Assembly (NCBI RefSeq): GCF_022458985.1
Contig: NC_061770.1
Coordinates: 37,243,599 to 37,307,598, forward strand
Direction: 5' to 3'
Origin: Mugil cephalus
Taxonomy: Eukaryota > Chordata > Actinopteri > Mugiliformes > Mugilidae
DNA length: 64,000 nucleotides
Notes under the pieces: model-generated
The model's input: only the letters and a program-made list of their open reading frames with translations
Told to the model about the DNA's origin: nothing
Databases searched by the model: none
Position numbers and translations under genes: made by a program
In this document: piece after piece, positions 19,211 to 63,218 of the stretch
Position numbering within the stretch: the stretch's first letter is position 1
How the letters are laid out: each line of letters starts with the position of its first letter

Positions 19211-20610
19211 TAGAATAGAATATAACCAGGTCTGTACACCTCCGCCAGCTCAAAACCACAGGCTGTCGACTGGAGCAGCTGTGCAGAAAGGCTGGAGTCA
19301 CTGTACTCACCCAAATGAACTTGTATTACATTCATCACTACAAGAAGCCCTCTCCTCTGCCAAATCCTCCTACCACTTCAACCTCATAAATACCCATACA
19401 GACAACAACAGAGTCCTCTTCTACACAGTCAACCACCTACTTCAGCCTCTCAAAACCCTCCCTCCACTTCAACCGAACAGTGCACTGGCTTCCTGCAACT
19501 CTTCAGCTTGAAAATCCCCACCATTCACCAACAGTTGGCGTCATCTTACACCTCCCCAACAGACCCGATCTGGATGGTTTCCTCTGTCAAACCTCACACA
19601 AGCTGTCTCACCAACTTCACCCTGGCATCAGAACACGTCATCTCTGACCTCATCCGTAAAGCTAAAACCACCATTTGTCAGCTTGATCCTCTTCCCACCA
19701 CCCTCACCAAAACCTGCCTGCTGTCCATTTTCCCCATGATGACTGCCACAGTAAACTCCTCGCCTTAAAAAAAAAAACAAAAAAAGCCCATCTCCAACCT
19801 TCCCTTCATCTCCAAGATTCTTGAAAAGGTAGTCGATGCATAGCTACAACCCCACCTTGACACTAACAACCTCCACGAAACCTTCCAATCTTCCAATCTT
19901 TCCGCCCTCAACACAGCACCAAAACAGCACTGCCGACTACTCACCATCCTCATCCACTACTCCTGGGCTAGCTGGCCCTAGCTAGCTGAAATTGGGATCA
20001 CTGGTATTGCAATTTCATGGTTTACTTCCTAACTCATAGACAGACAGCTCATACAACTTGGTAACAACAAATATCTGAGATCTGGTGTGTCACTGGTTTT
20101 CCCCCAAGGGTCTGTTTTAAGTCCCCTCCTCTTCATCATCGACCTCCTCCCCCTGGGCAAAATGTTTCGTCATCATGGGATCTACTTCCACTGCTATGCC
20201 AACAACACACAGGTCTGTACTTCCTCCATACCAACCACCACGCTGCCTCCCACCTCCCTCACCACCTGCCTGGAGGACATCAGGAGCTGGATGAGCAGGA
20301 ACTTTCTCAAACCCAGTGGCAGCAAAACCGAGGCCCTACTCATTGGCTCCAAATCCACCCTTACCAAACCACACCCATTGTCATTGACGGATTCCCAGCA
20401 CCCTCTCATTTGCTCGTCATATTAAAAATGGAACCTTTAACTGCACTCTTCCACCTCTGTAACATCTCCAGACTTTGCCCATCACTTGCCTAGTACGCCG
20501 TTGAAATCATGTCCCATTCATTTGTCACAACAGCACACCAAATCATCGGACCATATCACCCCTATCCCCTTAACTTATAAAGCCCTCCACAATCTGGTAA
20601 TCTGAGGTAA
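19211..20610 (+). mobile_element. L2-type LINE fossil
   Basis: Translated pieces on the plus strand follow the order of an L2 ORF2: linker region (SSLQEALSSAKSSYHFNL, about 19330), the STFHQQL-like and CQLDPLPTTL segments (19508-19768), SNLPFISKILEKVV (about 19793), then FPQGSVLSPLLFI (about 20095) and YANNTQ in place of the catalytic YADDTQ (about 20196). The 3' part continues to about 20600. Several frame changes and stops and the lost catalytic Asp residues show it is dead. There is no visible 3' tail or target duplication. Confidence 0.85.
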
Positions 20611-28630: not shown

Positions 28631-30712
28631 ATGACCCCCCACACGTTGGCTCTGTGCCTCTTTTGGCTGTACCTGGGCAGTTCAGGTAAGCTGTCTACTA
28701 CAAATGCTTTTGATGCAATGTCTACACATTTTTTAAGATGATATACTATAATCTTTGAAGTAAACCTGATTTCTTTTCAGCTCAGAAGACTGGTCACAAG
28801 TCATCCAGATACGTGAATCAAAAAGGTGGTCTTTATTCAGCTGATGTTGGGGGCAGCGTGACTTTACGGTGTTTCTACGAAGGTGATGCTGTGATGTTTT
28901 ACTGGTATAAACAAACCCTGGGACAAAAGCCAACGATCCTCTCCACCTTCTATAAACACGAACAAAAGGGCATCTTTCGTAACGAATTCAGGAACAGTTC
29001 ACGTTTCACGCTTGATACGGGAAATGGTAAAAATCACCTAACAATCTCTGACTTGCATACATCAGACTCGGCTACTTACTACTGCATCGGTGTCTTTTTA
29101 AACGATTTTGAATTTGGAGAGGGCGCCATGGTCAGTGTGAAGGGTTCAGGTTTGAACCTCCAAGCTTTAGTCCATCATTCAGACCCTGAGACCGTCCAGC
29201 CAGTGGTCTCCATGACTCTGAAGTGTACAGTCCTCACTAGGAGCTGTGACGGAGAACACAGTGTCTATTGGTTCAAAAAAGAAGAAGAATCCCATCCGGG
29301 ACTCATCTACACCAGTGGAGGCACAAATGATCAGTGTAACAGAACAACCAACATACAAACGCACACCTGTATCTACAACGTGCCGATGAATAACTCGAAT
29401 CAGCCAGACACCGACTCTTGTGCAGTTGCCTCATGTGGACACATATTATTTGGAAACAAGGAAAAGTACAATGAAGAGCGTAAGTAAGAATAAAGCAAAT
29501 GATTCATGTATTCTCTAATAGTGATTTTTACCTACTCCATCTTGTTTGCTGGTGTCTGGATTTGCAGATAAGGCTGAACCTCTTACCCTGGTGTATTTCT
29601 TGAGTGGAGGTTTGGCATTTAACATCATCCTGATAGTTTCACTGGGACACGCAGTATATAAAACCAGAAAAATCTACCAATGTAAAGGTAGGTTACACTT
29701 TCATTATTTCATATGATGGTGTGGTAAACATTGGAATTGAATTGGCTTGTGCTCTATATGAACTATGAAGTCAACGAAAGTCAGAAAACAGCATATTCCA
29801 CAATTACTTCTGTTGTAAAACTCATCGGCTGCGAAAACTAGTGAATAACAGATTGTTCTGGTATCAGTTTGAAGGTAGCTGAGGCTGTCAGCACCAATAT
29901 GAACCAAAAAGGCCAAATATTGATGAAACGTTTACAATCTATGATGCAATGTTTGGTAGCACTTTTTCTATCATGTGTAAGTATTACAGTCAACTAAAAT
30001 CTGTCTCTCTGACCTTATTTCACACCACAGGCTCTAAAGCCACATCTACAGCTGCCTGCAATCCAAATGCAGAAGTGAGTACTACTATGCCAACATGCAG
30101 ACAACACAAAATCCCCTATTCAAATGCATTTCACAACCTCTGGAATACATTTTGCCACTAATAGTGGTTGGACCTTACTGGCTGTATTTATCTTCATCAT
30201 CATCAAAATATCCAATTTTTTAGTACTTATGCACATACCTACGTATGGTGTACCCATAACATGATGTAACATGGTTAAATACAGAAAATGGCCAAACACA
30301 ATCCTTTGATTGCCTAAACCTAAACCAAAGTACGCTTTATATACTCAGCATCAAACCCAACTACCTGCTACATAATCATTGCAGCCATATGAGACAGTAA
30401 TTTCATTCAGGCTTGGTATAGCTGTCACGGGAATACATTATGTAAAAATAAAATAGATATTTACCCATGAGTCTTGAAATAACTGAAGTGAAAACATTTC
30501 AAAGCACAATAGTATCACAGCTACTTTAAGTGTATTTACAGAGTGTGTGCATCAGACAAGTGATAAATGCTAAAATTACATGTTATTACCAGGGTTGCCA
30601 AGATTCAGACAGCCTCCATTATGCTGCTTTAAGAGGATACAAGGTCAAAAGACCTGCAAGGCAGAGAGACAACACCGCAAGCGAATGCGTCTACTCCGGT
30701 GTCAAGCAGTAA
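28631..30712 (+). CDS. nitr: NITR gene c: receptor with a degenerate second Ig domain
   Basis: Exons 28631-28685, 28781-29479, 29568-29687, 30031-30074, 30593-30712; 345 residues, all junctions GT-AG, frame open throughout. The V domain is canonical (LRCFY, WYKQ, DSATYYC, FGEG). The second domain keeps LKCTV and the cysteines, but the F-strand YYC is changed to DSC with two codons lost. The J-like FGNGT becomes FGNKE and the last strand is no longer recognisable. The membrane helix and the tail (ITIM LHYAAL, Tyr316; CVYSGV, Tyr340) are intact. Either the domain is decaying while the gene is still expressed, or it has been freed for another role. Confidence 0.87.
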
Positions 30713-41916: not shown

Positions 41917-42586
41917 CAGTGTTGGGTGTAATATGCTACAAAGTAACACATTACTGTAATCAGATTACTTTTTCCAGTAACGAGTAGAGTAAGGCATTAC
42001 TCTACGGAAAATAGTAATCATATTACAGTTTTCCAAGCTCGTTACTTGCCTTACATTGTTAGTAGCAACTTCATCAAACATGCATCACACAGAACAGAAG
42101 GGAGGGGGACGTGAATGCAGCAGTGATTGGTTGGGGTTTGGCACGAGGTATCATTTACCATCACCAATTGGTCGCCACCTGGCAGCCGGCACCCACAAGG
42201 ACAGATGGAAGAGTCAACAAGCCCGGAGCATGCTGCTGCAAGCTCTTGTTCTGAAGAAGGTTCCCAGCTGCAAAAAGCTACTTTTGACGGGTGGAGATTC
42301 AGTCATTATTTTGAATATGTGCAACGAAAGGAAAATAACCTGGTGGTACAGTGCACACTTTGCCTGGGGAGAAAGATGCTCTCCACCGCTTCTAACATCA
42401 CCTCCAACTTGAAAAAACACTTGGAGCAACAGCACGGACACAAACTCCATACCTTTACCAGTAATAGCAAGGCCAGTCTATTGTTGGCGTAATATAACTA
42501 GCTAATATAACTAAATATAACTAACTAACTGGCGTAATATGCAATGTGTAATATATTACTTTTTTAAGTAATGAACCCCAACACTG
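41917..42586 (+). mobile_element. hAT transposon derivative with BED zinc finger remnant
   Basis: Ends CAGTGTTGGG and CCCCAACACTG are inverted repeats. Flanking 8-mers CATATATC (41909-41916) and CATATAGC (42587-42594) differ at one base, an 8-bp target duplication as made by hAT elements. Inside, a plus-strand frame ending near 42492 reads FEYVQRKENNLVVQC, then C-x2-C-x18-H-x4-H (CTLC...KKHLEQQH), the BED-type DNA-binding finger at the start of hAT transposases. Almost the whole transposase behind the finger is missing, so the element is non-autonomous. Confidence 0.85.
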
Positions 42587-43723: not shown

Positions 43724-45209
43724 ATGACGACACCTGCAACGTTAGTCTTTTATCTGACGTGTTTGTTCTTGGGGAAAATGGGTGAGTTGTGTTTCTGTTT
43801 GTATCCTTTACTTTGTAGTAACTCTCTTTAGGACTAAATGAGCAAAAATTATGTTCTCTGATGGTTAATGTAGTTTCTGACAGACTTTTGCTTATTGTGC
43901 TTTTCCCGTCCGATCTGATTTCAGCCCAAAACAGTGATGTGAAATCTTCCTCATTCGTTCATCAAGAGAGTCGTTTCATTTCAGCTAATGTTGGTGAGAA
44001 CGTGACTTTGCAATGTTTCCATGAAGGTGATGATTCTGCATGGCTCTTCTGGTACAAACAAACGGTTGGACAGAAACCAAGGCTCATATCCACCTTCTAT
44101 GTGTTTGATACAAGAATCAGTTTTCATAATGAATTCCAGAACAACCAACGCTTCACAGTGGATACAAGAAAAAGTGTATATCACTTAATGATCACAAACG
44201 TGGAAATTTCAGATTCAGCTACCTACTTCTGTGCAACTAGCTATAATTTTGTCTTGGATTTCGCAGAAGGGACTATTGTCAGTGTAAGAAGTTTGGGTTT
44301 GAATACTAAAGCTTCAGTACATCAGTCAGCATCTGAGACTATGCAGCTCAGAGACTCTGTGACTCTGAACTGTACAGTACACACTGGAAGCTGTGGCGCA
44401 GAACACAGTGTTTACTGGTACAAAAAGGAAGAGGAATCTCATCCAGAAATCATTTATACACATGGAGTCAGGAATGATCAATGTGAGAGGAAAGACAACA
44501 CACAAACACATACCTGTGTCTTCAACCTGCCGATGAAGAGTCTGAATCAATCTCATGCTGGTACCTACTACTGTGCTGTTGCTGCATGTGGAATCATTGT
44601 GTTTGGAGAGGGAACCAAGCTGGATTTTTCTCGTGAGTGATCAATATGATTTAAGTTAATTATAAATCAAAAAGTGCATGAAGAGTAATATGAGTTGTGT
44701 GTCTGGTACCTGGTTCTCAGGAGATGAAGTGGAGTCTCTTGCCTTGGTGTATTACTTAAGTGGAGCATTGACATTCAGCACCATCTTAGCTATTGTACTG
44801 GCCTTCAGAGTATACAAGATGTTCAACAGAAACAACAGTCAGAGTGAAGGTAAGTGATGCTCTTTGTTCTAGGTTAAATTTGCTATTCATAACTTCTGAA
44901 CAAGAGCTTATTCTGTGTTTCATCACCAGAGCCTGAAACAAAATCATCAACCCCCTCCACATCAAATCAGGTGAAACATAACTTTATTACATGCAATAAA
45001 TTACATTTAATTATGCATCTATAATTAAGGCTAAATGTTCTCCTGTCAGGACTGCCATACTAATCCTCCATCATTTTTAGCAGGGTTTTCGAGATGCAGA
45101 CAGCCTGCATTATGCTGCTATAAATGTTAAGCAGCCCTACAGATCAAGAAGACAGAAGGACGTTATGGACAGTATGGGTGAATGTGTGTACTCTAGCATA
45201 AAACAATAA
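43724..45209 (+). CDS. nitr: NITR gene f: full-length V domain, Arg in membrane helix
   Basis: Exons 43724-43781, 43925-44632, 44721-44849, 44930-44970, 45084-45209; 353 residues. V domain Cys50 to Cys122 (72 apart, normal for a V set), with WYKQ, DSATYFC and FAEGT. Second domain with six cysteines and FGEGT. Tail: ITIM LHYAAI (Tyr322) and CVYSSI (Tyr348). It is the close relative of g, h and i, but keeps the 19 residues they lack. Arg285 (AGA at 44807) replaces the Ile of g, h and i in the C-terminal part of the membrane helix. Exon 5 has a tandem acceptor (TAGCAG), so one Gln could be added. Followed by LINE copy A1. Confidence 0.93.
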
Positions 45210-45807
45210 AAACTAGCATGTAGTTTAGGAATAAAATTTAATTTTGTTGTATTTTATGTGTAATTTAATGTAGATTTAGGTGGAAATTTTAAAATGTACT
45301 TGTGCGTCTTCCTCATGCAGTGTGGACATGGTAGAAAAATCCATCCACACCCCAAGTTCATCCAGAAATGTATATGGCAAGGAGAAAGGCAGATTAAGGA
45401 TCTTTAGTGGTTTATGGCTTCGCATATTGTCATTGGACTGTAGATGACTTTACTGTACCTTAAGTGGAGCTTTATTCTGTTTTGGACAATAAGGATATTA
45501 TAGAGAGGCATCCTGCTCATCCCTGAGTGGGATGAGTGTTTCGATATTTCAATCCATGTGTGATGACTACCTTGTGTGACTTTTCCTTTACTAAAGTGAT
45601 ATATCTGTAATTATTTCTGTGAACTAGACATACACAAATAAAGCTATTCTGCACGAATTAAATGCTGTTTAAGTGTTTTTTACTTTTTTTTTTTTTTTTT
45701 GTCTGGAATACTCATATCTCACTTGTGAACATGCCTGCAAAATATCTGCATGCTGGTGTAACAGGGTAGACTTGTATCAATTTTGTTGTTGGTTGGGTTG
45801 ACTAGAT
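45210..45807. other. 3' UTR and flank of NITR f
   Basis: AATAAA signals near 45229 and 45638. The stretch is repeated behind g, the orphan exon, h and, diverged, behind i. Confidence 0.6.
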
Positions 45808-47845
45808 CAAATGAAATCAATTTAGATCAAATCAAATTGGGACATCCTTTCTCAGCTTTCTATAGAGATCGGTTTAGATTTGGGAAGTCATTATTTGGTA
45901 AGGAAAAGAATGGCAGCCTGATGGTAACGAAACAGGAACTGGAGGAGTACTTGGATGAGGTATATAAAGATGAGGAAAGTTTTAGGAAGATGGCACTCCT
46001 CTCTGATATTCCACCAAATGGGGAGAAAGGTAGTCAATGCGATGACAGCCAACTGAGGTGGAAAGAGATTCAGGAAGTGGTGAGGCGCAGAAGAGCCTCT
46101 TCAGCCCTGGGACCTAATGGAGTCCCTTATCGGCTATTTAAGAGTGCACCAGATGCACTGAGCTTTCTTTGGGAGTTGATGAAGGTAGTATGGTAGAAAC
46201 AGGTTATTCCCAAGACATTGCGCAGAGCAGGGGGGATTTTTATTCCCAAAGAGAGGGGCTCGTTAGAGATAAGTCAATTTAGACCGATCAGTCTGCTTAA
46301 TGTTGAGGGGAAGGTGTTCTTCGGTGTTGTGCACAGAGGTTGTCCAGTTACTTCGAGAAAAATGAATGGATTGAAACATCGGTTGAAAAGGCTGGAATCC
46401 CTGGGTTTTTTGGATGCTTAGAGCACACAAGTATGATCCAATAGGGTGTACAATCTTTTATAATGGCAATGGAGGTGATTATTAAGGTCTCGAAATGGAT
46501 GGTAGGTGGAGAAATGCTGCGTTGTCTCCCTCCAAGAAGGACCTACATACATGACATGACAACTGTGACGCCAACTACAGAATAAGCTAAACAGAAACCT
46601 GTAGTGGGCTGGGATAAAAGTGAAGCAGAGTAAATCTAGTATCAAGTATTTCAGTTGTTAAAGGAAAGGTAGTAGATAAGAGTTATGATATAAATGAGGA
46701 GGTGGTTCCCACGGTACTAGAGAAGTCAGTGAAGAGTTTGGGAAGGTGGTATGATGCAAGTCTAGTGATAAAGCGCAGTTTGAAGGATTGAGGCAGGAAA
46801 TGATTCAAGGTATTTTGAGCATAGATCGGTCAGGGTTCCTAGGAAAGTTAAGGTTATGGTATTTGCAGTTTGGTTTATTGCCCCAACTAATGTGGCCACT
46901 GACACTATATGAAGTTCATCTGTCAAAGGTTGAGAAGCTTGAATGGATGATTTATTCATCTATCCAGAGATGGCTTGGTGTCCCACACTGGTCAAGCGGC
47001 GCAGCCTTGTATGGAAAAAGCATACTGGAGCTCCCAGAAACTAGTCTAACAGAGGAGTTTAAGTGTGCTAGGGCTAGGCTGGCGATGACTCTCACTCAGT
47101 TGAAAGATCCAGTAATTAGGTGTGCAGCACCCATGGTTAAAACAGAGAGGAAGTGGAATCCGAAAGACGCAGCACAGCAAGCACAGGCTGCCCTCAGGCA
47201 TAGGGATATGATGGGTCATGTACAATAAGGATGTGGAGGTTTGGGGCTGTCTGCATGGAAACCTCTGTAGAGCAAGGCATCAGTAGGAGAAAAGAGAAAG
47301 ATGGTAGTGGAGGAGATTCATAAGCAAGAGAAAGCAGTAAAATGTACTAAGGCAGTGTCGCAGGCTAAGCAAGGACAGTGGGTGAACTGGGAGAGTGTAG
47401 TGAAAAGGAAGTAAGAAGTAAATTCCTTATCTGCTAGAAAGGAGATCAGGCATATTATGTTTGAATGGGAGGGAGAAAAGGCCAGACAGGTGAGGATCAG
47501 GCATAGCGCAGGTCAGCTAAGGGTAAGCGGAGCCTGAGAGCTGAGGGACGGCTTACAAGGATAGCTGATTGTCCCAGTGCCAATAGTTAGCACCTGACTG
47601 CGGCTGGACCTGTTGTTGTGGTTAAACGTAGAGAAGGTAGTGTATTTTACTGAGCTTACTGTCCCATGAGTGAGCAAGTGAATTGCTGTGGCTAAGGAGT
47701 AAACATGCTAGCTAGGGAGCATGCTAAAGGTAAGATTAGTTGAGTGGTTTTAGTAGTTAGTGGTAGGGCCAAGCTAATCTCGCTAGTTGGTAGCCGACGG
47801 ATAGCCTCCTGGTCAGTTTTTCAGTTGGACTGGGGACAGAAAACC
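45808..47845 (+). mobile_element. LINE copy A1 with restriction-like endonuclease (R2/NeSL-type)
   Basis: Broken plus-strand non-LTR retrotransposon lacking its 5' half. In order: FRFGKSLFGKEKNG and ELEEYLDEV, RRASSALGPNGVPYRLF (the start of reverse transcriptase), FIPKERGS...FRPISLLNVEGK, CLEHTSMI, MAMEVII, the thumb region WYLQFGLLPQLMWPLT and WLGVP. The catalytic box reads YIHD instead of YMDD. The part between CLEHTSMI and MAMEVII is deleted, and stops interrupt the frame. The 3' end has lost part of the endonuclease. Wording such as YKDEESF marks subtype A, shared with the copy at 53148. Flanks are identical in all four copies, so it inserted once and was then copied with the genes. Confidence 0.82.
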
Positions 47846-48800
47846 TTGAGGCTTCCAGTTTCCAACCAGCAGTCAACTTTTGATATTACAAAGACTGATA
47901 AGGAAGAGGTCATTTTAACCAATCGTTTTGTGAGTTACGATCGTTGTCAGAAAATTCTCCTATAGGTCATCCTGAAGGGCATGGACAAACAACATTTGAT
48001 TATATTGTCAAATGTTATAGTCTTGTTCTGTTGCATGGAAGGACGTGCTACCTTCCAAGTTCCCAGAGAAGTCACGCAATGAAGTGTCTGTGTGTGAAGT
48101 TACTATCTACACACATTTAAGTCTTTTTGACATTGTTCCTACTCTGAATGCAGAAAATAAAATGAATAAGTACACTTAGACCTCTATGCTTTTACTTTCA
48201 GTCTTTGTCATGTAGTGGCTACTGAAGTTTATGTAGAGTTGGTTTCACTCAAACATCCAAGACCTTTAAAACACCCAATAATACTAAAATATTTGCCTTT
48301 AGGTGATCATGTTGACTTTGATCACTAAGTCTTATTGTAACAGTAGTAGTAATGGACTTCCCTAGTATATAACAACTTTATGTTCCAAACAGTAGATAAA
48401 TGTCGAGATTATAAAATGATCACTAACAAAAATCAATATTAAAAATAATATATGACAGATGGACACCTCTACCAGTGGGTCCAAATAAAAACATAGGATT
48501 TATGTGTATTTGAAATGTACATGGTAAAATATCAAGCATAGATGTTACTAAACCACATGTGGTCCATTGCAAAAGTGGAGCACATGTTATCTTCAACATT
48601 AGATGGAGATGAGACTCCACTTAACACTGTTGCTAGTGTGTAAACTAGATCATGTAATTAATGTTCCCCTAGGTTTAGTATAAAGACAAGATGAAAATCC
48701 TTCAGGTTATTCATGCAGTACCAAACTCGCGATGATAGGGTGGCAATAACATGTGATTAAGTTTCCTTAGTAGGACGTACTATTCAGTGTCACTTCAGAC
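47846..48800. other. Spacer upstream of NITR g
   Basis: No gene. The same spacer occurs upstream of h (55187-56140) and i (60233-61200), and in pieces upstream of f. Confidence 0.6.
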
Positions 48801-48878: not shown

Positions 48879-50303
48879 ATGATGACACCTACAAACTTAG
48901 TCTTTTATCTGACTTGTTTGTTCTTGGGGAAAATGGGTGAGTTGTGTTTCTGTTTGTATCCTTTACTTTGTAGTAACTCTCTTTAGGACTAAATTAGCAA
49001 AAGCGATCTTCTCTGATGGTTAATGTGGATTCTGACAGACGATTGCTTATTGTGTACCCTTTAATTTGTTTTCAGCCCAAAAGACTGATTTGAAATCTTC
49101 CTCATCCATTCATCAAGAGAGTCGTGTTATTTCAGTTAATGTTGGTGAGAACGTGACTTTGCAATGTTTCAATGAAGATGATGATTCTGCATGGCTCTTC
49201 TGGTACAAACAAACTATCGGACAGAAACCGAGGCTCATATCCACCAACAAAGTGGTTACAAAAAAAAGCGTATATCACTTGACAATCACAAACGTGCAAA
49301 TTTCAGATTCAGCTACCTACTACTGTGCAACTAGCGATTATTATGTCTTGGATTTCGCAGAAGGGACTATTGTCAGTGTAATAAGTTTGGGTTTGTATAC
49401 TAAAGCTTCAGTACATCAGTCGGCATCTGAGACTATGCAGCTCGGAGACTCCGTGACTCTGAACTGTACAGTACACACTGGAAGCTGTGGCGCAGAACAC
49501 AGTGTTTACTGGTACAAAAAGGAAGAGGAATCTCATCCAGAAATTATTTATACACATGGAGTCAGGAATGATCAGTGTCAGAGGAATGACAACACACAAA
49601 CACACACCTGTGTCTACAACCTGTCGATGAAGAGTCTGAATCAATCTCATGCTGGGACCTACTACTGTGCTGTTGCTGCGTGTGGAGGCATTGTGTTTGG
49701 AGAGGGAACCAAGCTGGATTTTTCTCGTGAGTGATCAATATGATTTAAGTTAATTATTAATCAAAATGTGCATGAAGAGAAATATGAGTTGTGTGTCTGG
49801 TACCTGGTTCTCAGGAGATGAAGTGGAGTCTCTTGCCTTGGTGTATTACTTAAGTGGAGCCTTGACATTCAGCACCATCTTAGCTATTGTACTGGCCTTC
49901 ATAGTATACAAGATGTTCAACAGAAACAACAGTCAGAGTGAAGGTAAGTGATGCTCTTTGTTCTAGGTGAAATTTGCTATTCATAACTTCTAAACAAGAG
50001 CTTATTCTGTGTTTCAACACCAGAGCCTCAAACAAAGTCATCAACCCCCTCCACATCAAATCAGGTGAAAAATAGCTTTATTACATGCATTAAATTAAAT
50101 TTAAGTATGCATCTATAATTAAGGCTAAATGTTCTTCTGTCAGGACTGCCATACTAATCCTCCATCATTTTTAGCAGGGTTTTCGAGACGCAGACAGCCT
50201 GCATTATGCTGCTATAAATGTTAAGCAGCCCTACAGATCAAGAAGACAGAAGGATGTTATGGACGGTATGGGTGAATGTGTGTACTCTAGGATAAAACTA
50301 TAA
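48879..50303 (+). CDS. nitr: NITR gene g: shortened V domain
   Basis: Exons 48879-48936, 49076-49726, 49815-49943, 50024-50064, 50178-50303; 334 residues, two ATGs in tandem at the start. The V domain keeps LQCFN, WYKQ, DSATYYC and FAEGT but lacks 19 residues after LIST, so its cysteines (50 and 103) are only 53 apart instead of 72. The lost part corresponds to strands C'' and D. Second domain (six cysteines, FGEGT), uncharged membrane helix and tail (LHYAAI, Tyr303; CVYSRI, Tyr329) are intact. The 57-base deletion keeps the frame, and all splice sites are good. NAGNAG acceptor at exon 5. Nearly identical to gene h. Confidence 0.93.
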
Positions 50304-50909
50304 AATCTAGCATGTGGTTTAGTAATAAAATGCAAATTTGTTGTATTTTAAGTGTAAGTTAATGTAGATTTAGGTGGAAATTTTAAAATTTACTTGTGCA
50401 TCTTCCTCGTGCAGTGTGGACATGGTAGAAAAATCCATCCGCTCCCCAAGTTTATTGAGAAATGTATATGGCAAGGAGAAAGGTAGATTAAGGATCTTTA
50501 GTGGTTCATGGCTTCGCATATTGTCATTGGACTGTAGATGACTTTATTGTACCTTAAGTGGAGCTTTATTCTGTTTTGGACAATAAAGATATTATAGAGA
50601 GGCATCCTGCTCATCCCTGAGTGGGATGAGTGTTTCAATATTTTTGACTATTTCAATCCATGTGTGATGACTACCTTGTGTGACTTTTCCTTTACTAAAG
50701 TGATATATCTGTAACTATTTCTGTAAACTAGACATACACAAATAAAGCTATTCTGCACGAATGAAATGCTATTTAAGTGTTTTTTACTTATGTATATATA
50801 TATTTGTCTGGAGTACTTTTATCTAACTAGCAAACATGCCTGCAAAATATCTGCATGCTGGTGTAAGAGGGTAGACTTGTATCAATTTTGTTGTTGGTTG
50901 GGTTGACTA
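50304..50909. other. 3' UTR and flank of NITR g
   Basis: Copy of the f flank, with AATAAA near 50328 and 50740. Confidence 0.6.
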
Positions 50910-52303
50910 GATCAAATGAAATCAATTTAGATCAAATCAAATTGGGACATCCTTTCTCAGCTTTCTATAGGGATCGGTTTAGATTTGGGAAGTCGTTATT
51001 TGGTAAGAAAAAGAATGGCAGCCTTGTGTTAACGAAACAGGAACTGGAGGAGTACTTGGATGAGGTACATGAGGATGAGGAAAAGTTTAGGAAGATGGCA
51101 CTCCCCTCTGATATTCCACCAAATGGGGAGAAAGGTAGTCAATGCGATGACAGCCAACCGAGGTGGAAAGAGATTCAGGAAGTGGTGAGGCGAGAAGAGC
51201 CTCTTCAGCCCTGGGACCTAATGGAGTCCCGTATCGGCTGTTTAAGAGTGCACCAGATGCACTGAGATTTCTTTGGGAGTTGATGAAGGTAGTATGGTAG
51301 AAACAGGTTATTCCCAAGACATTACGCAGAGCAGGGGGGATTTTTATTCCCAAAGAGAGGGGCTCATTAGAGATGAGTCAATTTTGACCGATCAGTCTGC
51401 TTAATGTTGAGGGGAAGGTGTTCTTCAGTGTTGTGCAAAGAGGTTGCCCAGTCACTTTGAGAAAAACGGATGGATTGATACATCTTAGGAAAAGGCTGGA
51501 ATCCCTGGCTTTTTTGGATGCTTAGAGCACACCAGTATGATCCGACAGGGTGTACAATCTTTAACAATGGCAATGGAGGTGATTATTAAGGCCTCGAAAT
51601 GGATGGTAGGTGGAGAAAAGCTGCATGGAGGGCGTTCTCTCCCTCCAATAAGGGCCTACATGGATGACATGACGACTGTGACGCCAACTACAGAATAAGC
51701 TAAACAGAAACCTGTAGTGGGCTGGGATGAAAGTGAAGCAGAGTAAATCTAGTATCAAGTATTTCAGTTGTTAAAGGAAAGGTAGTAGATAAGAGTTATG
51801 GTATAAATGAGGAGGTGGTTACCACAGTACTAGAGAAGTCAGTGAAGAGTTTGGGAAGGTGGTAGGATGCAAGTCTAGTGATAAAGCGCAGTTTGAAGGA
51901 TTGAGGCAGGAAATGATTCCAGGTATTTTGAGCATAGATCGGTCAGTGTTCCCAGGAAAGTTAAGGTTATGGTATTTGCAGTTTGGTTTATTGCCCCAAC
52001 TATGTGGCCACTGACACTATATGAAGTTCATCTGTCAAAGGTTGAGAAGCTTGAATGAATGATTTATTCATCTATCCAGAGATGGCTTGGTGTCCCAAAC
52101 TGGTCAAGCAGCGCAGCCTTGTATGGGAAAAGCATACTGGAGCTCCCAGAAACTAGTCTAAGAGAGGAGTTTAAGTGTGCTAAGGCTAGGCTGGCAATTA
52201 CTCTCACTCAGTCGAAAGATCCAGTAGTTAGGTGTGCAGCGCCCATGGTTAAAACAGAGAGGAAGTGGAATCCGAAAGATTAAGTGCAGTGGGTGAACTT
52301 GGA
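50910..52303 (+). mobile_element. LINE copy B1, cut short at a duplication joint
   Basis: Same LINE as at 45808 but subtype B (HEDEEKF, ALPSDIPP). The catalytic box AYMDDMTT is preserved at about 51656-51679. Stops and frame changes remain. It ends abruptly near 52303, where LINE sequence (GTGAACTTGG) runs into the last bases of a NITR exon 4 and its donor. That is the joint of the tandem duplication. Confidence 0.82.
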
Positions 52304-52549
52304 AAATCAGGTGAAAAATAGCTTTATTACATGCATTAAATTAAATTTAATTATGCATCTATAATTAAGGCTAAATGTTTTCCTGTCAGGACTGCCATAC
52401 TAATCCTCCATCATTTTTAGCAGGGTTTTCGAGACGCAGACAGCCTGCATTATGCTGCTATAAATGTTAAGCAGCCCTACAGATCAAGAAGACAGAAGGG
52501 CGTTATGGACGGTATGGGTGAATGCGTGTACTCTAGCATAAAACTATAA
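52304..52549 (+). pseudogene. Orphan NITR exon 5 with end of exon 4
   Basis: Seven bases of an exon 4, its donor, a complete intron 4 and a complete exon 5 (52424-52549, GFRDADSLHYAAI ... CVYSSIKL, stop TAA) stand alone, with no exons 1-3 before them. The intron and the first part of the exon look like gene g, the end of the exon and the 3' UTR like gene f, so it is a mosaic. Its TAGCAG acceptor is intact, so it could in principle serve as an alternative last exon for gene g. Confidence 0.9.
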
Positions 52550-53147
52550 AAACTAGCATGTGGTTTAGGAATAAAATTCAATCTTGTTGCATTTTAAGTG
52601 TAATTTAATGTAGATTTAGGTGGAAATTTTAAAATGTACTTGTGCGTCTTCCTCTTGCAGTGTGGACATGGTAGAAAAATCCATCCACACCCCAAGTTCA
52701 TCCAGAAATGTATATGGCAAGGAGAAAGGTAGATTAAGGATCTTTAGTGGTTTATGGCTTCGCATATTGTCATTGGACTGTACGTGACTGTACTGTAACT
52801 TAAGTGGAGCTTTATTCTGTTTTGGACAATAAGGATATTATAGAGAGGCATCCTGCTCATCCCTGAGTGGGATGAGTGTTTCAACATTTCAATCCATGTG
52901 TGATGACTACCTTGTGTGACTTTTCCTTTACTAAAGTGATATATCTGTAATTATTTCTGTAAACTAGACATACACAAATAAAGCTATTCTGCACGAATGA
53001 AATGCTGTTTAAGTGTTTTTTACTTATTTATTTATTTTTTGTCTGAAATATTCATATCTAACTTGCGAACATGCCTGCAAAATATCTGCATGCTGGTGTA
53101 ACAGGGTAGACTTGTATCAATTTTGTTGTTGGTTGGGTTGACTAGAT
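52550..53147. other. 3' UTR and flank of the orphan exon
   Basis: Copy of the f-type flank (45210-45807), offset 7340 bp. Confidence 0.6.
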
Positions 53148-55186
53148 AAAATGAAATCAATTTAGATCAAATCAAATTGGGACATCCTTTCTCAGCTTTC
53201 TATAGAGATCGGTTTAGATTTGGGAAGTCATTATTTGGTAAGGAAAAGAATGGCAGCCTGATGGTAACGAAACAGGAACTGGAGGAGTACTTGGATGAGG
53301 TATATAAAGATGAGGAAAGTTTTGGGAAGATGGCACTCCTCTCTGATATTCCACCAAATGGGGAGAAAAGTAGTCAATGCGATGACAGCCAACCGAGGTG
53401 GAAAGAGATTCAGGAAGTGGTGAGGCGCAGAAGAGCCTCTTCAGCCCTGGGACCTAATGGAGTCCCTTATCGGCTATTTAAGAGTGCACCAGATGCACTG
53501 AGCTTTCTTTGGGAGTTGATGAAGGTAGTATGGTAGAAACAGGTTATTCCCAAGACATTGCGCAGAGCAGGGGGGATTTTTATTCCCAAAGAGAGGGCCT
53601 CGTTAGAGATAAGTCAATTTAGACCGATCAGTCCGCTTGATGTTGAGGTGAAGGTGTTCTTCGGTGTTGTGCACAGAGGTTGTCCAGTTACTTCGAGAAA
53701 AATGAATGGATTGATACATCGGTGCAAAAGGCTGGAATCCCTGGGTTTTTTGGATGCTTAGAGCACACCAGTATGATCCGATAGGATGTACAATCTTTTA
53801 TAATGGCAATGGAGGTGATTATTAAGGCCTCGAAATGGATGGTAGGTGGAGAAATGCTGCGTTGTCTCCCTCCAATAAGGGCCTACATTCATGACATGAC
53901 AACTGTGACGCCAACTACAGAATAAGCTAAACAGAAACCTGTAGTGGGCTGGGATAAAAGTGAAGCAGAGTACATCTAGTATCAAGTATTTCAGTTGTTA
54001 AAGGAAAGGTAGTAGATAAGAGTTATGGTATAAATGAGGAGGTGGTTCCCACAGTACTAGAGAAGTCAGTGAAGAGTTTGGGAAGGTGGTATGATGCAAG
54101 TCTAGTGATAAAGCGCAGTTTGAAGGATTGAGGCAGGAAATGATTCAAGGTATTTTGAGCATAGATCGGTCAGGGCTCCCAGGAAAGTTAAGGTTATGGT
54201 ATTTGCAGTTTGGTTTATTGCCCCAACTAATGTGGCCACTGACAGTATATGAAGTTCATCTGTCAAAGGTTGAGAAGCTTGAATGGATGATTTATTCATC
54301 TATCCAGAGATGGCTTGGTGTCCCACACTGGTCAAGCGGCGCAGCCTTGTATGGGAAAAGCATACTGGAGCTCCCAGAAACTAGTCTAACAGAGGAGTTT
54401 AAGTGTGCTAGGGCTAGGCTGGCGATGACTTTCACTCAGTTGAAAGATCCAGTAATTAGGTGTGCAGCACCCACGGTTAAAACAGAGAGGAAGTGGAATC
54501 CGAAAGACGCAGCACAGCAAGCACAGGCTGCCCTCAGGCATAGGGATATGATGGGTCATGTACAGCAAGGATGTGGAGGTTTGGGGCTGTCTGCATGGAA
54601 ACCTCTGTAGAGCAAGGCATCAGTAGGAGAAAAGAGAAAGGTGGTAGTGGAGGAGATTCATAAGCAAGAGAAAGCAGTAAAATGTACTAAGGCAGTGTCG
54701 CAGGCTAAGCAAGGACAGTGGGTGAACTGGGAGAGTGTAGTGAAAAGGAAGTAAGAAGTAAATTCCTTATCTGCTAGAAAGGAGAACAGGCATATTATGT
54801 TTGTATGGGAGGAAGAAAAGGCCAGACTGGTGAGGATCAGGCATAGCACAGATCAGCTAAGGGTAAGCGGAGCCTGAGAGCTGAGGGACGACTTACAAGG
54901 ATAGCTGATTGTCCCAGTGCCAATAGTTAGCACTCGACTGCGGCTGGACCTGTTGTTGTGGTTAAACGTAGAGAAGGTAGTGTATTTTACTGAGCTTACT
55001 GTCCCATGAGTGAGCAAATGAATTGCTGTGGCTAAGGAGTAAACATGCTAGCTAGGGAGCATGCTAAAGGTAAGATTAGTTGAGTGGTTTTAGTAGTTAG
55101 TGGTAGGGCCAAGCTAATCTCGCTAGTTGGTAGCTGACGGATAGCCTGGTGGTCAGTTTTTCAGTTGGACTGGGGACAGAAAAACT
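53148..55186 (+). mobile_element. LINE copy A2
   Basis: Subtype A (YKDEESF, ALLSDIPP, YIHD box), a close match to the copy at 45808 with an offset of 7340 bp, including the same internal deletion and the same loss in the endonuclease part. Broken. Confidence 0.82.
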
Positions 55187-56140
55187 TGAGGCTTCCAGTT
55201 TCCAACCAGCAGTCAACTTTTAATATTACAAAGACTGATAAGGAAGTGGTCATTTTAACCAATCGTTTTGTGAGTTACGATGGTTGTCAGAAAATTCTCC
55301 TATAGGTCATCCCGAAGGGCATGGACAAACAACATTTGATTATATTGTCAAATGTTATAGTCTTGTTCTGTTGCATGGAAAGACGTACTACCTTCCAAGT
55401 TGCCAGAGAAGTAGGGCAATAAAGTGTCTGTGTGTGAAGTTAGTATCTACACACATTTAAGTCTTTTTGACATTGTTCCTACTCTGAATGCAGAAAATAA
55501 AATGAATAAGTACACTTAGACCTCTATGCTCTTACTTTCAGTCTTTGTCATGTAGTGGCTACTGAAGTTTATGTAGAGTTGGTTTCACTCAAACATCCAA
55601 GACCTTTAAAACATCCAATAATACTAAAATATTTGCCTTTAGGTGATCATGTTGACTTTGATCACTAAGTCTTATTGTAACAGTAGTAGTAATGGACTGC
55701 CCTAGTATATAACAACATTATGTTCCAAACAGTAGATAAATGTCGAGATTATAAAATGATCACTAACAAAAATCAATATTAAAAATAATATATGACAGAT
55801 GGACACCTCTACCAGTGGGTCCAAATAAAAACATAGGATTTATTGTGTATTTGAAATGTACATGGTAAAATATCAAGCATAGATGTTACTAAACCACATG
55901 TGGTCCATTGCAAAAGTGGAGCACATGTTATCTTCAACATTAGATGGAGATGAGACTCCACTTAACACTGTTGCTAGTGTGTAAACTAGATCATGTAATT
56001 AATGTTCCCCTAGGTTTAGTATAAAGACAAGATGAAAAGCCTTCAGGTTATTCATGCAGTACCAAACTCGCGACGATAGGGTGGCAATAACATGTGATTA
56101 AGTTTCCTTAGTAGGACGTACTATTCAGTGTCACTTCAGA
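55187..56140. other. Spacer upstream of NITR h
   Basis: Copy of 47846-48800; no gene. Confidence 0.6.
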
Positions 56141-56144
56141 CTAG

Positions 56145-56151
56145 CCAATCA
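56145..56151 (+). promoter_or_regulatory. CCAAT box and upstream module, NITR gene h
   Basis: Identical to the gene g promoter core; start 75 bp downstream. Confidence 0.6.
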
Positions 56152-56219
56152 AGCTCAGTCTTTTCTCTTAAGAGTAGAGATAGAGTTCAGGAGTTTTTCT
56201 TTCAACAGGGGTATTGAAC

Positions 56220-57655
56220 ATGATGACACCTACAAACTTAGTCTTTTATCTGACTTGTTTGTTCTTGGGGAAAATGGGTGAGTTGTGTTTGTGTTTGTAT
56301 CCTTTACTTTGTAGTAACTCTCTTTAGGACTAAATTAGCAAAAGCGATCTTCTCTAATGGTTAATGTGGATTCTGACAGACGTTTGCTTTTGGATAATTG
56401 TCTTTTTACCATTTTGTTTGATTTCAGCCCAAAAGACTGATTTGAAATCTTCCTCATCCATTCATCAAGAGAGTCGTGTTATTTCAGTTAATGTTGGTGA
56501 GAATGTGACTTTGCAATGTTTCAATGAAGATGATGATTCTGCATGGCTTTTCTGGTACAAACAAACTATCGGACAGAAACCGAGGCTCATATCCACCTAC
56601 AAAGTGGTTACAAAAAAAAGCGTATATCACTTGACAATCACAAACGCGCAAATTTCAGATTCAGCTACCTACTACTGTGCAACTAGCGATTATTATGTCT
56701 TGGATTTTGCAGAAGGGACTATTGTCAGTGTAATAAGTTTGGGTTTGTATACTAAAGCTTCAGTACATCAGTCGGCATCTGAGACTATGCAGCTCGGAGA
56801 CTCTGTGACTCTAAACTGTACAGTACACACTGGAAGCTGTGGTGCAGAACACAGTGTTTACTGGTACAAAAAGGAAGAGGAATCTCATCCAGAAATTATT
56901 TATACACATGGAGTCAGGAATGATCAGTGTCAGAGGAAACACAACACACAAACACACACCTGTGTCTACAACCTATCGATGAAGAGTCTGAATCAATCTC
57001 ATGCTGGGACCTACTACTGCGCTGTTGCTGCGTGTGGAGGCATTGTGTTTGGAGAGGGAACCAAGCTGGATTTTTCTCGTAAGTGATCAATATGATTTAA
57101 GTTAATTATTAATCAAAATGTGCATGAAGAGAAATATGAGTTGTGTGTCTGGTACCTGGTTCTCAGGAGATGAAGTGGAGTCTCTTGCCTTGGTGTATTA
57201 CTTAAGTGGAGCATTGACATTCAGCACCATCTTAGCTATTGTACTGGCCTTCATAGTATACAAGATGTTCAACAGAAACAACAGTCAGAGTGAAGGTAAG
57301 TGATGCTCTTTGTTCTAGGTTAAATTTCCTATTCATAACTTCTAAACAAGAGCTTATTCTGTGTTTCAACCCCAGAGCCTCAAACAAAATCATCAACCCC
57401 CTCCACATCAAATCAGGTGAAATATAGCTTTATTACATGCATTAAATTAAATTTAATTATGCATCTATATTTAAGGCTAAATGTTCTCCTGTCGGGACTG
57501 CCATACTAATCCCCCATCATTTTTAGCAGGGTTTTCGAGACGCAGACAGCCTGCATTATGCTGCTATAAATGTTAAGCAGCCCTACAGATCAAGAAGACA
57601 GAAGGACGTTATGGACAGTATGGGTGAATGTGTGTACTCTAGGATAAAACTATAA
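56220..57655 (+). CDS. nitr: NITR gene h: shortened V domain, twin of gene g
   Basis: Exons 56220-56277, 56428-57078, 57167-57295, 57376-57416, 57530-57655; 334 residues. Only a handful of residues differ from gene g in exon 2 (Tyr for Asn after LIST, Ala for Val in ITNAQ, KH for ND). It carries the same 19-residue V deletion (Cys50 to Cys103), FAEGT and FGEGT J-like motifs, uncharged membrane helix, ITIM LHYAAI (Tyr303) and CVYSRI (Tyr329). The donor of exon 2 is GTAAGT where f, g and i have GTGAGT. The offset of 7341 bp from gene g is that of the whole duplicated block. Confidence 0.93.
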
Positions 57656-58251
57656 AATCTAGCATGTGGTTAAGGAATAAACTGCAATTTTGTTGTACTT
57701 TAAATGAAGTTAATGTAGATTTAGGTGGAAATTTTAAAATGTACTTGTGCATCTTCCTCATGCAGTATGGACATGGTAGAAAAATCCATCCGCACCCCAA
57801 GTTTATTCAGAAATGTATATGGCAATTAGAAAGGTAGATTAAGGATCTTTAGTGGTTCATGGCTTCACATATTGTCATTAGACTGTAGATGACTTTATTG
57901 TACCTTAAGTGGAGCTTTATTCTGTTTTGGACAATAAAGATATTATAGAGAGGCATCCTGCTCATCCCTGAGTGGGATGAGTGTTTCAACATTTCAATCC
58001 ATGTGTGATGACTACCTTGTGTGACTTTTCCTTTACTAAAGTGATATATCTGTAATTATTTCTGTAAACTAGACATACACAAATAAAGCTATTCTGCACG
58101 AATTAAATGCTATTTAAGTGTTTTTTACTTTTTTTTTTTTTTTTTTGTCTGGAATACTCATATCTAACTTGCGAACATGCCTGCAAAATATCTGCATGCT
58201 GGTGTAACAGGGTAGACTTGTATCAATTTTGTTGTTGGTTGGGCTGACTAG
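57656..58251. other. 3' UTR and flank of NITR h
   Basis: Copy of the f/g flank with AATAAA near 58081 and a poly(T) run near 58129-58147. Confidence 0.6.
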
Positions 58252-60232
58252 ATAAAATGAAATCAATTTAGATCAAATCAAATTGGGACATCCTTTCTCA
58301 GCTTTCTATAGGGATCGGTTTAGATTTGGGAAGTCATTATTTGGTAAGGAAAAGAATGTCAGCCTGATGGTACTGAAGCAGGAACTGGAGGAGTACTTGG
58401 ATGAGGTACATGAGAATGAGGAAAGGTTTAGGAAGATGGCACTCCCCTCTGATATTCCACCAAATTTGGAAAAAGGTAGTCAATGCGATGACAGCCAACC
58501 GAGGTGGAAAGAGATTCGGGAAGTGGTGAGGCGCAGAAGAGCCTCTTCAGCCCTGGGACCTAAGGGAGTCCCTTATCGGCTATTTAAGAGTGCACCAGAT
58601 GCACTGAGCTTTCTTTGGGAGTTGATGAAGGTAGTATGGTAGAAACAGGTTATTCCCAAGACATTGCACAGAGCAGTGGGGATTTTTATTCCCAAAGAGA
58701 GGGGCTCGTTATAGATAAGTCAATTTAGACCGATCAGTCTCTTCTGTGTTAAGCACAGAGGTTGTCCAGTCACTTTGAGAAAAATGGATGGATTAATACA
58801 TTGGTGGAAAAGGCTGGAATCCCTGGCTTTTTTGGATGCTTAGAGCACACCAGTATGATCCGACAGGGTGTACAATCTTTTACAATGGCAATGGAGGTGA
58901 TTATTAAGGCCTCAAAATGGGTGGTAGGTGGAGAAAAGCTGCATGGAGGGCATTGTCTCCCCCCAATAAAGGGCCTACATGGATGACATGACAACTGCGA
59001 CGCCAACTACAGAATAAGCTAAACAGAAACCTGTAGTGGGCTGGGATGAAAGTGAAGCAGAATAAATCTAGTATCAAGTATTTCAGTTGTTAAAGGAAAG
59101 GTAGTAGATAAGAGTTATGGTATAAATGAGGAAGTGGTTCCCACAGTACTAGAGAAGTCAGTGAGGAGTTTGGGAAGGTGGTATGATGCAAGTCTAGTGA
59201 TAAAGCGCAGTTTGAAGGATTGAGGCAGGAAATGATTCCAGGTATTTTGAGCATAGATCGGTCAGGGCTCCCAGGAAAGTTAAGGTTATGGTGTTTGCAG
59301 TTTGGTTTATTGCCCCAACTAATGTGGCCACTGACAGTATATGAAGTTCATCTGTCAAAGGTTGAGAAGCCCGAATGGATGATTTATTCATCTATCCAGA
59401 GATGGCTTGGTGTCCCACACTGGTCAAGCGGCGCAGCCTTGTATGGGAAAAGCATACTGGAGCTCCCAGAAACTTGCCTAACAGAGGAGTTTAAGTGTGC
59501 TAAGGCTAGGCTGGCAATGACTCTCATTCAGTTGAAAGATCCAGTAGTTAGGTGTGCAGCGCCCATGGTTAAAACAGAGAAGAAGTGGAATCCGAAAGAT
59601 TCAGTGCAGTGGATGAACTTGGAGAGTGTAGAGAAAAAGAAGTACGAAGTAAATTCCTTATCTGCTAGAAAGGAGAACAGGCATATTATGTTTGAATGGG
59701 AGGGAGAAAATGCCAGACAGGTGAGGATCAGTCATAGCGCAGGTCAGCTAAGGGTAAGCGGAGCCTGAGAGCTGAAGGCCAACTTACAAGGATAGCTGAT
59801 TGTCCCAGTGTCAATAGTTAGCACTCGACTGCGGCCGGAACTGCTGTTGTGGTTGAAAGCAGAGAGGGTAGTGTATTTTACTGAGCTTACTGTCCCATGG
59901 CAAGACAAAGTCAAGGAGGCTAATGAGCCCAATCGAGCTAGGCATGCAGAGATGGCAGCAGAAGCTGAGCAGCGAGGGTGCATCCGTGTGCGGCCCGGCA
60001 GAGGTGAGTTGCTGTGGATTTGCAGTAAACACTATGTCCCTGTCAGTGGAGTGAGCAAGTGAATTGCTGTGGCTAAGGAGGAAACATGCTAGCTGGGGAG
60101 TATGTTAAATATAAGAGTAGTTGAGTGGTTTTAGTAGTTAGTAGCAGGGCCAAGTTAATCTCTGGGTTGCTAGTTGGTAGCTGACAGCTAGCCTCCTGGT
60201 CAGTTTTTTATTTGGACTGTGGACAGAAAACC
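58252..60232 (+). mobile_element. LINE copy B2, the one with the endonuclease end
   Basis: Subtype B (HENEERF, ALPSDIPP, YMDD box at about 58976-58987). It has the B-type deletion of about 220 bp behind KTEKKWNPKD, but alone among the four copies keeps the 3' coding end at 59808-60062: STRLRPELLLW, ELTVPWQDK and RHAEMAAEAEQRG. This is the restriction-like endonuclease domain of R2/NeSL/Utopia-type LINEs, with Glu where the first acidic residue (RPD) is expected. Broken by stops elsewhere. Confidence 0.82.
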
Positions 60233-61200
60233 TTGAGGCTTCCAGTTTCCAACAAGCAGTCAACTTTTAATATTACAAAGACTGATAAGGAAGTGGTCAT
60301 TTTAACCAATCATTTTGTGAGTTACGATGGTTGTCAGAAAATTCTCCTATAGGTCATCCTGAAGGGCATGGACAAACAACATTTGATTATATTGTCAAGT
60401 TTTGTAGTCTTGTTCTGTTGCATGGAAAGACGTATTACCTTCCAAGTTGCCAGAGAAGTTGGGCAATAAAGTGTCTGTGTGTGAAGTTAGTATATACACT
60501 CATTTAAATCGTTTTGACATTGTTCCTACTCTGAATGCAGAAAATAAAATGAAAAAGTACACTAAGACCTCTATGCTTTTACTTTCAGTCTTTGTCATGT
60601 AGTGGCTACTGAAGTTTATGTAGAATTGGTTTCACTCAAACATCCAAGACCTTTAAAACATTAAAAAAAAAACAAAAAAACATTTAAAATATTTGTCTTT
60701 AGATGATCATGTTGACTTTCATCACTAAGTCTTATTGTAACAGTAGTAGTAATGGACTGCCCTAGTATATAACAACATTATGTTCCAAACAGTAGATAAA
60801 TGTCGAGATTATAAAATGATCACTAATAAAAATCAATATCATATAATTTTTTTAATAATGTATAACAGATGGACACCTCTACCAGTGGGTCCAAATAAAA
60901 ACATTGTTTATTTGAAATGTATATGGTAAAATATCAAGTATAGATGTTACTAAACCACATGTGGTCCATTGCTAAAGATGGAGCACATGTTATCTTCAAC
61001 ATTAGATGGAGATGAGACTCCACTTAACACTGTTGCTAGTGTGTAAACTATATCATGTAATTAATGTTTCCCTGGGTTTAGTATAAAGACAAGATGAAAA
61101 GCCTTCAGGTTATTCACGCAGTACCAAATGTGCGAAATTGTGGCAAGAACATGTGATTAAGTTTCCTTAGTAGGATGTACTATACATTGTCACTTCAGAT
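60233..61200. other. Spacer upstream of NITR i
   Basis: Copy of the g/h spacer, more diverged, with a short A-rich insertion near 60661-60685. Confidence 0.6.
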
Positions 61201-61203
61201 TAG

Positions 61204-61210
61204 CCAATCA
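61204..61210 (+). promoter_or_regulatory. CCAAT box and upstream module, NITR gene i
   Basis: TTGTCACTTCAGATTAGCC then AATCA, 75 bp before the start. Confidence 0.6.
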
Positions 61211-61278
61211 AACTCAGTCTTTTCTCTTAAAAGTAGAGATAGAGTTCAGGAGTTTTTCTTTCAACAAGGGTATTGAAC

Positions 61279-62702
61279 ATGATGACACCTATAAACTTAA
61301 TCTTTTATCTGACATTTTTGTTCTTGGGGAAAATGGGTGAGTTGTGTTTCTGATTGTATCCTTTAGTTTGTAGTAACTCTCTTTAGGACTAAATGAGCAA
61401 AAATGATCTTCTCTAATGGTTAATGTGCATTCTGACAGACTTTTGCTTATTGTGTACCCTTTAATTTGTTTTCAGCCCAAAAGACTGATTTGAAATCTTC
61501 CTCATCTGTTCATCAAGAGAGTCGTTTCATTTCAACTAATGTTGGTGAGCAAGTGACTTTGCAATGTTTCCATGAAGGTGATGATTCTGCATCACTCTTC
61601 TGGTATAAACAAACTATCGGACAAAAACCAAGACTCATATCCACCTACAAAGTGGTTACAAGAAAAAGCATATATCACTTGACGATCGCAAATGTGCAAA
61701 TTTCAGATTCAGCGACCTACTACTGTGCAACTAGCAATAATTTTGTCTTGGATTTCGCAGAAGGGACTATTGTCAGTGTAATAAGTTGGGGTTTGAATAC
61801 TAAAGCTTCAGTACATCAGTCGGCATCTGAGACCGTGCAGCTCGGAGACTCTGTGACTCTGAACTGTACAGTACACACTGGAAGCTGTAGCGCAGAACAC
61901 AGTGTTTACTGGTACAAAAAGGAAGAGGAATCTCATCCAGAAATTATTTATACACATGGAGTCAGGAATGATCAGTGTCAGAGGAAAGACAACACACAAA
62001 CACACACCTGTGTCTACAAGTTATCGATGAAGAGTCTGAATCAATCTCATGCTGGGACCTACTACTGCGCTGTTGCTGCATGTGGAGGCATTGTGTTTGG
62101 AGAGGGAACCAAGCTGGATTTTTCTCGTGAGTGATCAATATGATTTAAGTTAATTATTAATCAAAAAATGCAGTAAGAGAAATATGAGTTGTGTGTCTGG
62201 TACCTGGTTCTCAGGAGATGAAGTGGAGTCTCTTGCCTTGGTGTATTACTTAAGTGGAGCATTGACATTCAGCACCATCTTAGTTGTTGTACTGGCCTTC
62301 ATAGTATACAAGATGTTCAACAGAAACAACAGTCAGCCTGAAGGTAAGTGATGCTCTTTGTACTGGGTTATATTTGCTATTCATAACTTCTGAACAAGAG
62401 CTTATTCTGTGTTTCATCACCAGAGCCTCAAACAACATCATCAATCCCCTCCACATCAAATCAGGTGAAAAATAGCTTCACTACTTGCAATACATGACAT
62501 TTAATCATGCATCTGTAATTAAAGCTTAATGTTCTCTTGTCAGTACTGGCAAACTAATCCTCCATCTTTTACCTTCTAGCAGGGTTTTCGAGATGCGGAC
62601 AGCCTGCATTATGCTGCTATAAATGTTAAGCAGCCCTACAGACCAAGAAGACAGAAGGACGTTGGCATGGGTGAATGTGTGTACTCCAGCATAAAAAAGT
62701 AA
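61279..62702 (+). CDS. nitr: NITR gene i: shortened V domain
   Basis: Exons 61279-61336, 61476-62126, 62215-62343, 62424-62464, 62583-62702; 332 residues. V domain with the same 19-residue gap as g and h, but with some f-like wording (CFHEGDDSAS, SNNFVLDFAEGT), so it split from g/h before they split from each other. Second domain with six cysteines and FGEGT, uncharged helix (LVVVLAFIVYK), ITIM LHYAAI (Tyr303) and CVYSSI (Tyr327). Exon 5 lost six bases in frame (DVGMGE). No LINE of the A/B kind is seen behind it within the window. Confidence 0.92.
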
Positions 62703-63042
62703 AAACTAGCATGTGGTTTAGGAATAAAATGCAATTTTGTTGTATTTTAAGTGTAATTTAACGTAATTTAGATGGAAATTTCGAAATGTACTTGTGCGTC
62801 TTCCTCGTGCAGTGTGGTTCCTACAGAAGGAATCTGCATCCCAGGTTCATCCAGAACTGTATGTGGCAACTAGAAAGGTAGTTTAAGGGTGTGTTATTGG
62901 TTTATGGCTTCATGTACTGTCACTGGACTGTAGATGACTTCACTGTACCTTGAGTGGGGCTTTCTTCTGTTGTTGAAGATCAAGACATCATAGAGAGGAG
63001 GTCTTGGTAATCCCTCAGTGGGATGACTATTTCAAATGATGG

Positions 63043-63043
<1 letters not shown>

Positions 63044-63076
<33 letters not shown>
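63044..63076 (+). repeat. Poly(T) tract
   Basis: Thirty-three T in a row. Confidence 0.95.
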
Positions 63077-63079
<3 letters not shown>

Positions 63080-63218
63080 AAAGCTATATTATATGTGTAA
63101 TCATTTCTGGGAACGAGACATACACAAATAAAGCTATTCTGCATGAATGAAACGCTATTTTCTTAATTTCTTATTATTCTCTCTGGAACACTCTTATCTA
63201 AACTTTCCTGCTAAATAT

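Follow-up and report, generated by a model that had tools for sequence, protein, structure and literature searches.

A shared in-frame loss of 57 bases shortens the V domain of three intact inhibitory NITR genes in Mugil cephalus

Can the V domain of an immune receptor lose its second complementarity-determining region (CDR2) and edge strands and still serve the receptor? This question is raised by an array of NITR-like genes in Mugil cephalus. The window we analysed is a stretch of 64,000 nt (GCF_022458985.1, contig NC_061770.1, positions 37,243,599-37,307,598, forward strand), and all coordinates below are counted from its first base. It contains nine NITR-like genes (a to i), all on the + strand, and three of them, g, h and i, encode a V domain shorter than that of gene f. 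The shortening is a real, shared loss that keeps the reading frame, and the three inhibitory NITR genes that carry it are intact; in one of these the shortened domain is predicted to fold. Gene f and the trio g, h and i thus offer a natural before-and-after pair, which can inform how V domains are related to I-set, C2-set and VNAR domains and where the V domain of an NITR contacts its ligand.

Alignment of the exon encoding the V and I parts of f with its counterpart in g, h or i gave, in each case, a single gap of 57 bases (19 codons) immediately 3' of the motif LIST, just as a first-pass annotation of positions 48879-62702 had claimed. When all single-gap placements were scanned, six tied within 7 bases (from 44094-44150 to 44100-44156), and the region of f that contains the bases absent from g, h and i is 44094-44156 (+; single-gap scan and alignment). 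Under one of these six placements, exactly FYVFDTRISFHNEFQNNQR is lost. In f, CTTC opens the lost stretch and occurs again just 3' of it, which suggests slippage as the origin of the deletion. The V cysteines are 53 residues apart in all three shortened genes, a C2-like size, compared to 72 in f and 69-72 in genes a to f (gene a has two candidate first V cysteines, with a spacing of 69 or 71). By this comparison, the deletion is the derived state. Following the usual naming of V-domain strands, it removes CDR2, C'' and the first part of D. After the gap, residues of g, h and i align with FTVDTRKS of f as N/Y-K-V-V-T-K/R-K-S; in all three genes F is replaced with N or Y, T with K and D with V. 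Protein alignment places the retained NKVV opposite FYVF of f, whereas the DNA scan places it opposite FTVD; we preferred the DNA placement. At the DNA level, part of the former D-strand region is still present in g, h and i.

The three genes are intact. All nine genes encode their V and I parts in one open frame, with apparent damage to the I part in c, and matches to transmembrane and tyrosine-motif exons lie 3' of each of them. Exon-by-exon models were made for f, g, h and i only; each has five exons, GT/AG splice sites and an intact reading frame. Gene f (43724-45209, +; exon model, intact open reading frame, alignment and identities) is the nearest copy with an undeleted V domain, and its V+I exon protein is 87-88% identical to those of g, h and i. 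Gene g (48879-50303) begins with its ATG at 48879 and consists of a leader exon (48879-48936), an exon for the shortened V domain and an I domain with six cysteines (49076-49726; also supported by Pfam and AlphaFold), a transmembrane exon (49815-49943), a cytoplasmic exon (50024-50064) and a last exon encoding LHYAAI, CVYSRI and the stop (50175-50303). Gene h (56220-57655) has the corresponding exons at 56220-56277, 56428-57078 (exon model, Pfam and cysteine positions), 57167-57295, 57376-57416 and 57527-57655, and gene i (61279-62702) at 61279-61336, 61476-62126 (exon model and Pfam), 62215-62343, 62424-62464 and 62580-62702; all are on the + strand. The last exon of i shows an in-frame loss of 6 bases, and 62702 is the final base of its stop codon. 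Coordinates, splice sites and frames agreed with the first-pass annotation.

The encoded proteins have the features by which NITRs are recognized. Despite the shortening, the N-terminal domain is of V type (Pfam V-set scores of 49.4, 49.0 and 44.3 for g, h and i, with a cutoff of 26). WYKQ, both V cysteines, DSATYYC and FAEGT are present in all three genes; the V cysteine pair is followed by six I-domain cysteines, and J-like motifs close the V part (FAEGTIVSV) and the I part (FGEGTKLDF). The proteins fall in the inhibitory class: they carry LHYAAI and CVYSRI/CVYSSI, and the transmembrane exon, judged by eye, encodes no charged residue in mid-membrane. Both cytoplasmic tyrosine motifs had been called intact. 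Both tyrosines are indeed kept in g, h and i, and scored by the consensus of the immunoreceptor tyrosine-based inhibitory motif (ITIM), LHYAAI is a match, whereas CVYSRI/CVYSSI is only a variant (C at -2).

Structures were modelled for the V domains of g and i. In the AlphaFold model of g, the V blocks had predicted local distance difference test (pLDDT) values of 81-90, two A strands were formed (residues 11-13 and 17-21), and a long C' ran directly into E with no strand in between. The V domain of g is accordingly one that is predicted to fold, and the model supports a shortened V domain without C'' and D. It also suggests that the residual D-region sequence no longer makes a D strand. The earlier claim that strands C'' and D were lost therefore holds for the predicted structure of g, whereas the DNA keeps part of the D region.

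By Pfam, V-set was the best class for the V domains of g and h, whereas that of i scored slightly higher as I-set (45.8) than as V-set, the only V domain among the nine genes to do so. A drift to I-set as an adaptation after the deletion was considered and dropped, because f deleted in silico scored like g and h (V-set 45.8, I-set 36.9); placing the junction residues of f in g or i shifted the scores by no more than 2 bits. Searches of PDB sequences with f and g returned thousands of antibody and T-cell receptor matches (best 60 listed). A VIA-align structural comparison named no VNAR or NITR among the 50 listed of 998 chains, a result that excludes nothing.

We compared coding changes in g, h and i with neutral expectations derived from the noncoding divergence of the same genes. 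No stop was found where 5.4 were expected (P 0.005), and no frameshift where 3.5 were expected (P 0.03), the latter a rough figure derived from 3 indels over about 576 noncoding bases. Omega (dN/dS) over the whole coding sequence was 0.16 for g-h (p 0.0004), 0.49 for g-i (p 0.005) and 0.55 for h-i (p 0.017); these tests involve small counts and pairs that share branches, and the mosaic part of the genes includes the transmembrane and cytoplasmic exons. For the I part, omega was 0.14 (p 0.015), 0.35 (p 0.06) and 0.42 (p 0.13) in the same order. These comparisons provide fair evidence of constraint on the whole genes and weak evidence for the V part. The view that the trio does not reflect decay was thus upheld at the level of entire genes. 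Residues that differ between g and i were concentrated in CDR1, CDR3 and the junction (p 0.005; 8 of 25 sites there, compared to 6 of 77 elsewhere), and those between h and i showed a similar pattern (7/25 and 7/77; p 0.039), with the limits of the loops and junction set by convention.

With e, which sits on a long branch, as the root, a tree spanning the 5' flank through exon 2 grouped g, h and i with support of 99/95. Over the same region, derived sites were shared by ghi (15), gh (10), fgh (5), fi (5) and fgi (3), with 1 each for other combinations. Exon 2 by itself was not very informative: rooted on e only, the V part gave ghi 4, fgh 3, fi 3 and gh 5, and the I part ghi 3 and fgh 2. Because the e-rooted tree groups the three genes, one deletion in their common ancestor followed by at least two duplications fits the sequences best. 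Self-BLAST identified a 7.34-kb tandem copy, in which 44964 to about 52303 is repeated at 52304 to about 59623; the copy contains the last exon of f, a spacer, and h as the duplicate of g. The tree and the tandem copy together bear out at least two duplications, as first proposed. The first part of the second tandem unit, 52304-56038 (+), is a 97.5% copy of 44964-48697 and holds the last exon of f (here at 52421-52549) and the spacer, and the unit ends with h. From about the transmembrane exon on (44754-45680 and 62215-63160), g and h are more similar to f than to i, making i the outlier, which points to sequence exchange between copies of the array and to mosaic genes. Spread of the deletion by conversion could in principle have occurred; one ancestral event is simpler.

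We favour, at a probability of roughly 0.55, the reading that g, h and i encode real inhibitory receptors with a smaller, CDR2-less ligand face that arose from one ancestral 57-base deletion. An in-frame deletion in the single V+I exon, placed by the tree in the common ancestor, took away what by convention are the CDR2 loop, C'' and the start of D. Leftover D sequence would then extend C', which in the model turns straight into E, and the predicted outcome is a framework of V type with a J-like G strand, in which the strands follow a C2-like order. Two or more later duplications multiplied the gene, and the copies stayed open as inhibitory NITRs, with selection, as the statistics support, acting on the whole receptor. 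CDR2 being gone, the receptors would bind ligand through CDR1, CDR3 and the turn newly formed between C' and E, and would send inhibitory signals via LHYAAI.

Several observations weigh against this reading. The model of i, built from g, h and i rows only to avoid bias from the placement of NKVV, was poor (pLDDT 52.5) and repeats the strand pattern of g at low confidence. Most of the Pfam shift is produced by deleting f in silico, so that later adaptation toward I-set is unsupported. The deletion also takes out the Arg that is conserved for the salt bridge typical of V domains. Omega for the V part alone indicated weak constraint (g-h 0.23, p 0.11; g-i 0.55, p 0.10; h-i 0.46, p 0.035), and dN between the V parts of g and i, 0.070, is near the divergence of the 5' flank and intron 1, 0.077. 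The excess of changes in loops and junction was similar for f-g (9/25 and 11/77; p 0.039) and missing for f-i (5/25 and 12/77; p 0.76); the clustering is therefore, on these counts, not special to the shortened genes. With e, d and b together as the root, the V part gave ghi 0 and fgh 1, and the I part ghi 1 and fgh 2; trees of the V part alone (85 codons, junction excluded) and the I part alone (111 codons) did not separate f, g, h and i. The changed ligand face and the functional variant proposed at first pass are thus partly supported: the observation is confirmed, the dN/dS comparison proposed there gives omega below 1 for whole coding sequences with a weak signal in V, the structure prediction proposed there gives a good model for g, and the concentration of g-i changes makes a changed face plausible.

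The weak constraint on V is what a disabled V domain would also produce, with ligand binding abolished and the receptors persisting because they are young, or via the I domain, the membrane part and the ITIM. We consider this unlikely, if a serious competitor. The V dN close to flanking divergence fits it, as does the lower g-i dN of the I domain (0.022), and NITR genes turn over by birth and death; in medaka about 10% are pseudogenes (PMC2442602). Yet all three genes retain WYKQ, DSATYYC, the V cysteine pair and the J-like motif, g-i and h-i changes concentrate in the loops, and the V domain of g is predicted to fold. That good model, together with the missing stops and frameshifts and the whole-gene omega below 1 in all three pairs, speaks against a misfolded domain in early pseudogenes that happen to lack stops. 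Such an origin is quite improbable, even though the tests against neutrality use small counts and the damaged-looking I domain of the nearby gene c indicates that genes in this array do decay. Least probable is an array that is partly an assembly artefact, with copies or alleles of one gene set in tandem. Only 16 coding changes separate g from h, and the duplicate at 52304-56038 is nearly identical to its source; however, the similarity of i to g and h is just 88-89%, and were h an allele of g, two loci would nonetheless carry the deletion.

The preferred reading, a working receptor with a CDR2-less face, can be compared with known systems. Like the NITRs of medaka, pufferfish and zebrafish, g, h and i combine a V domain and a six-cysteine I domain with J-like motifs and an ITIM plus variant; unlike them, they are without CDR2, C'' and the start of D. 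In PMC2442602, six conserved cysteines are a criterion for the NITR I domain, and the arrangement found here, one exon for both V and I, is the pufferfish type and one of two medaka types. No description of a CDR2-less NITR was found in the literature covered, neither in passages of the one paper retrieved that treats both NITRs and CDR2 nor in the titles and abstract openings listed; this coverage probably leaves the main subscription NITR papers outside, and novelty in print is unproven. Shark VNAR, as described in PMC8470474, is likewise a V domain without CDR2 and C'', and PMC8151367 lists CDR1, CDR3, HV2 and HV4 for it. In VNAR, which belongs to an antibody that rearranges, a short C' and a D strand persist (PMC8470474), whereas the g model has a long C' and no D. 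In the NITR genes, a single germline exon encodes the V, J-like and I parts, and exons for the transmembrane segment and the ITIM come after it. By analogy, the shortened NITR V domain may work in a partly VNAR-like manner; it is not a VNAR member. According to PMC8470474, I-set and C2-set domains are without C'', and C2 is also without D, with a GFCC' sheet. The g model, and the low-confidence i model, resemble C2-set in the absence of C'' and D and the joining of C' to E, and gene i resembles I-set in its score; g and h differ in scoring best as V-set, and two A strands (in the g model) and a terminal J-like motif are further differences. More tentatively, and with less confidence than the preferred reading itself, a germline innate receptor lineage in a bony fish may have turned V into a CDR2-less, C2-like binding domain that diversifies at the loops it has left, CDR1 and CDR3, and at the new C'-E turn; CDR2 would then have been lost independently here and in shark VNAR. 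NKp30 was set aside as a natural killer receptor parallel, its topology being C1-like according to a review (PMC3972465). A pattern search of viral contigs gave 22 pattern stretches and 0 relatives.

An orphan copy of the tyrosine-motif exon (52421-52549) lies 3' of g, with an AG acceptor and an open frame; it could serve as an alternative last exon of g. LINE-like (long interspersed nuclear element) open frames, recognized by eye, occur at 45762-47228, with copies after g, in 52304-56038 and after h, within the duplicated units; two pieces scanned had no Pfam match. Gene c (28780-29487) has an I domain in which the D-G-T-Y-Y-C motif is broken and the sequence past FGN departs from the pattern; it still has a V domain and matches to the later exons, and is a possible pseudogene. 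For synteny of the NITR cluster, seven non-NITR stretches were scanned with Pfam: two matched 7tm_1 receptors, one RVT_1 and one zf-BED, and three had no match. The two 7tm_1 receptor genes are located left of the array at 3180-4595 (+; the scan omitted 4140-4595) and 7157-8638 (-), and the RVT_1 and BED zinc finger fragments, at 20033-20422 and 42127-42489, are likely mobile-element remains. Two nested inverted repeats at 11305-14435, with 862-nt arms 98% complementary and 304-nt arms 96% complementary, perhaps represent a fold-back mobile element.
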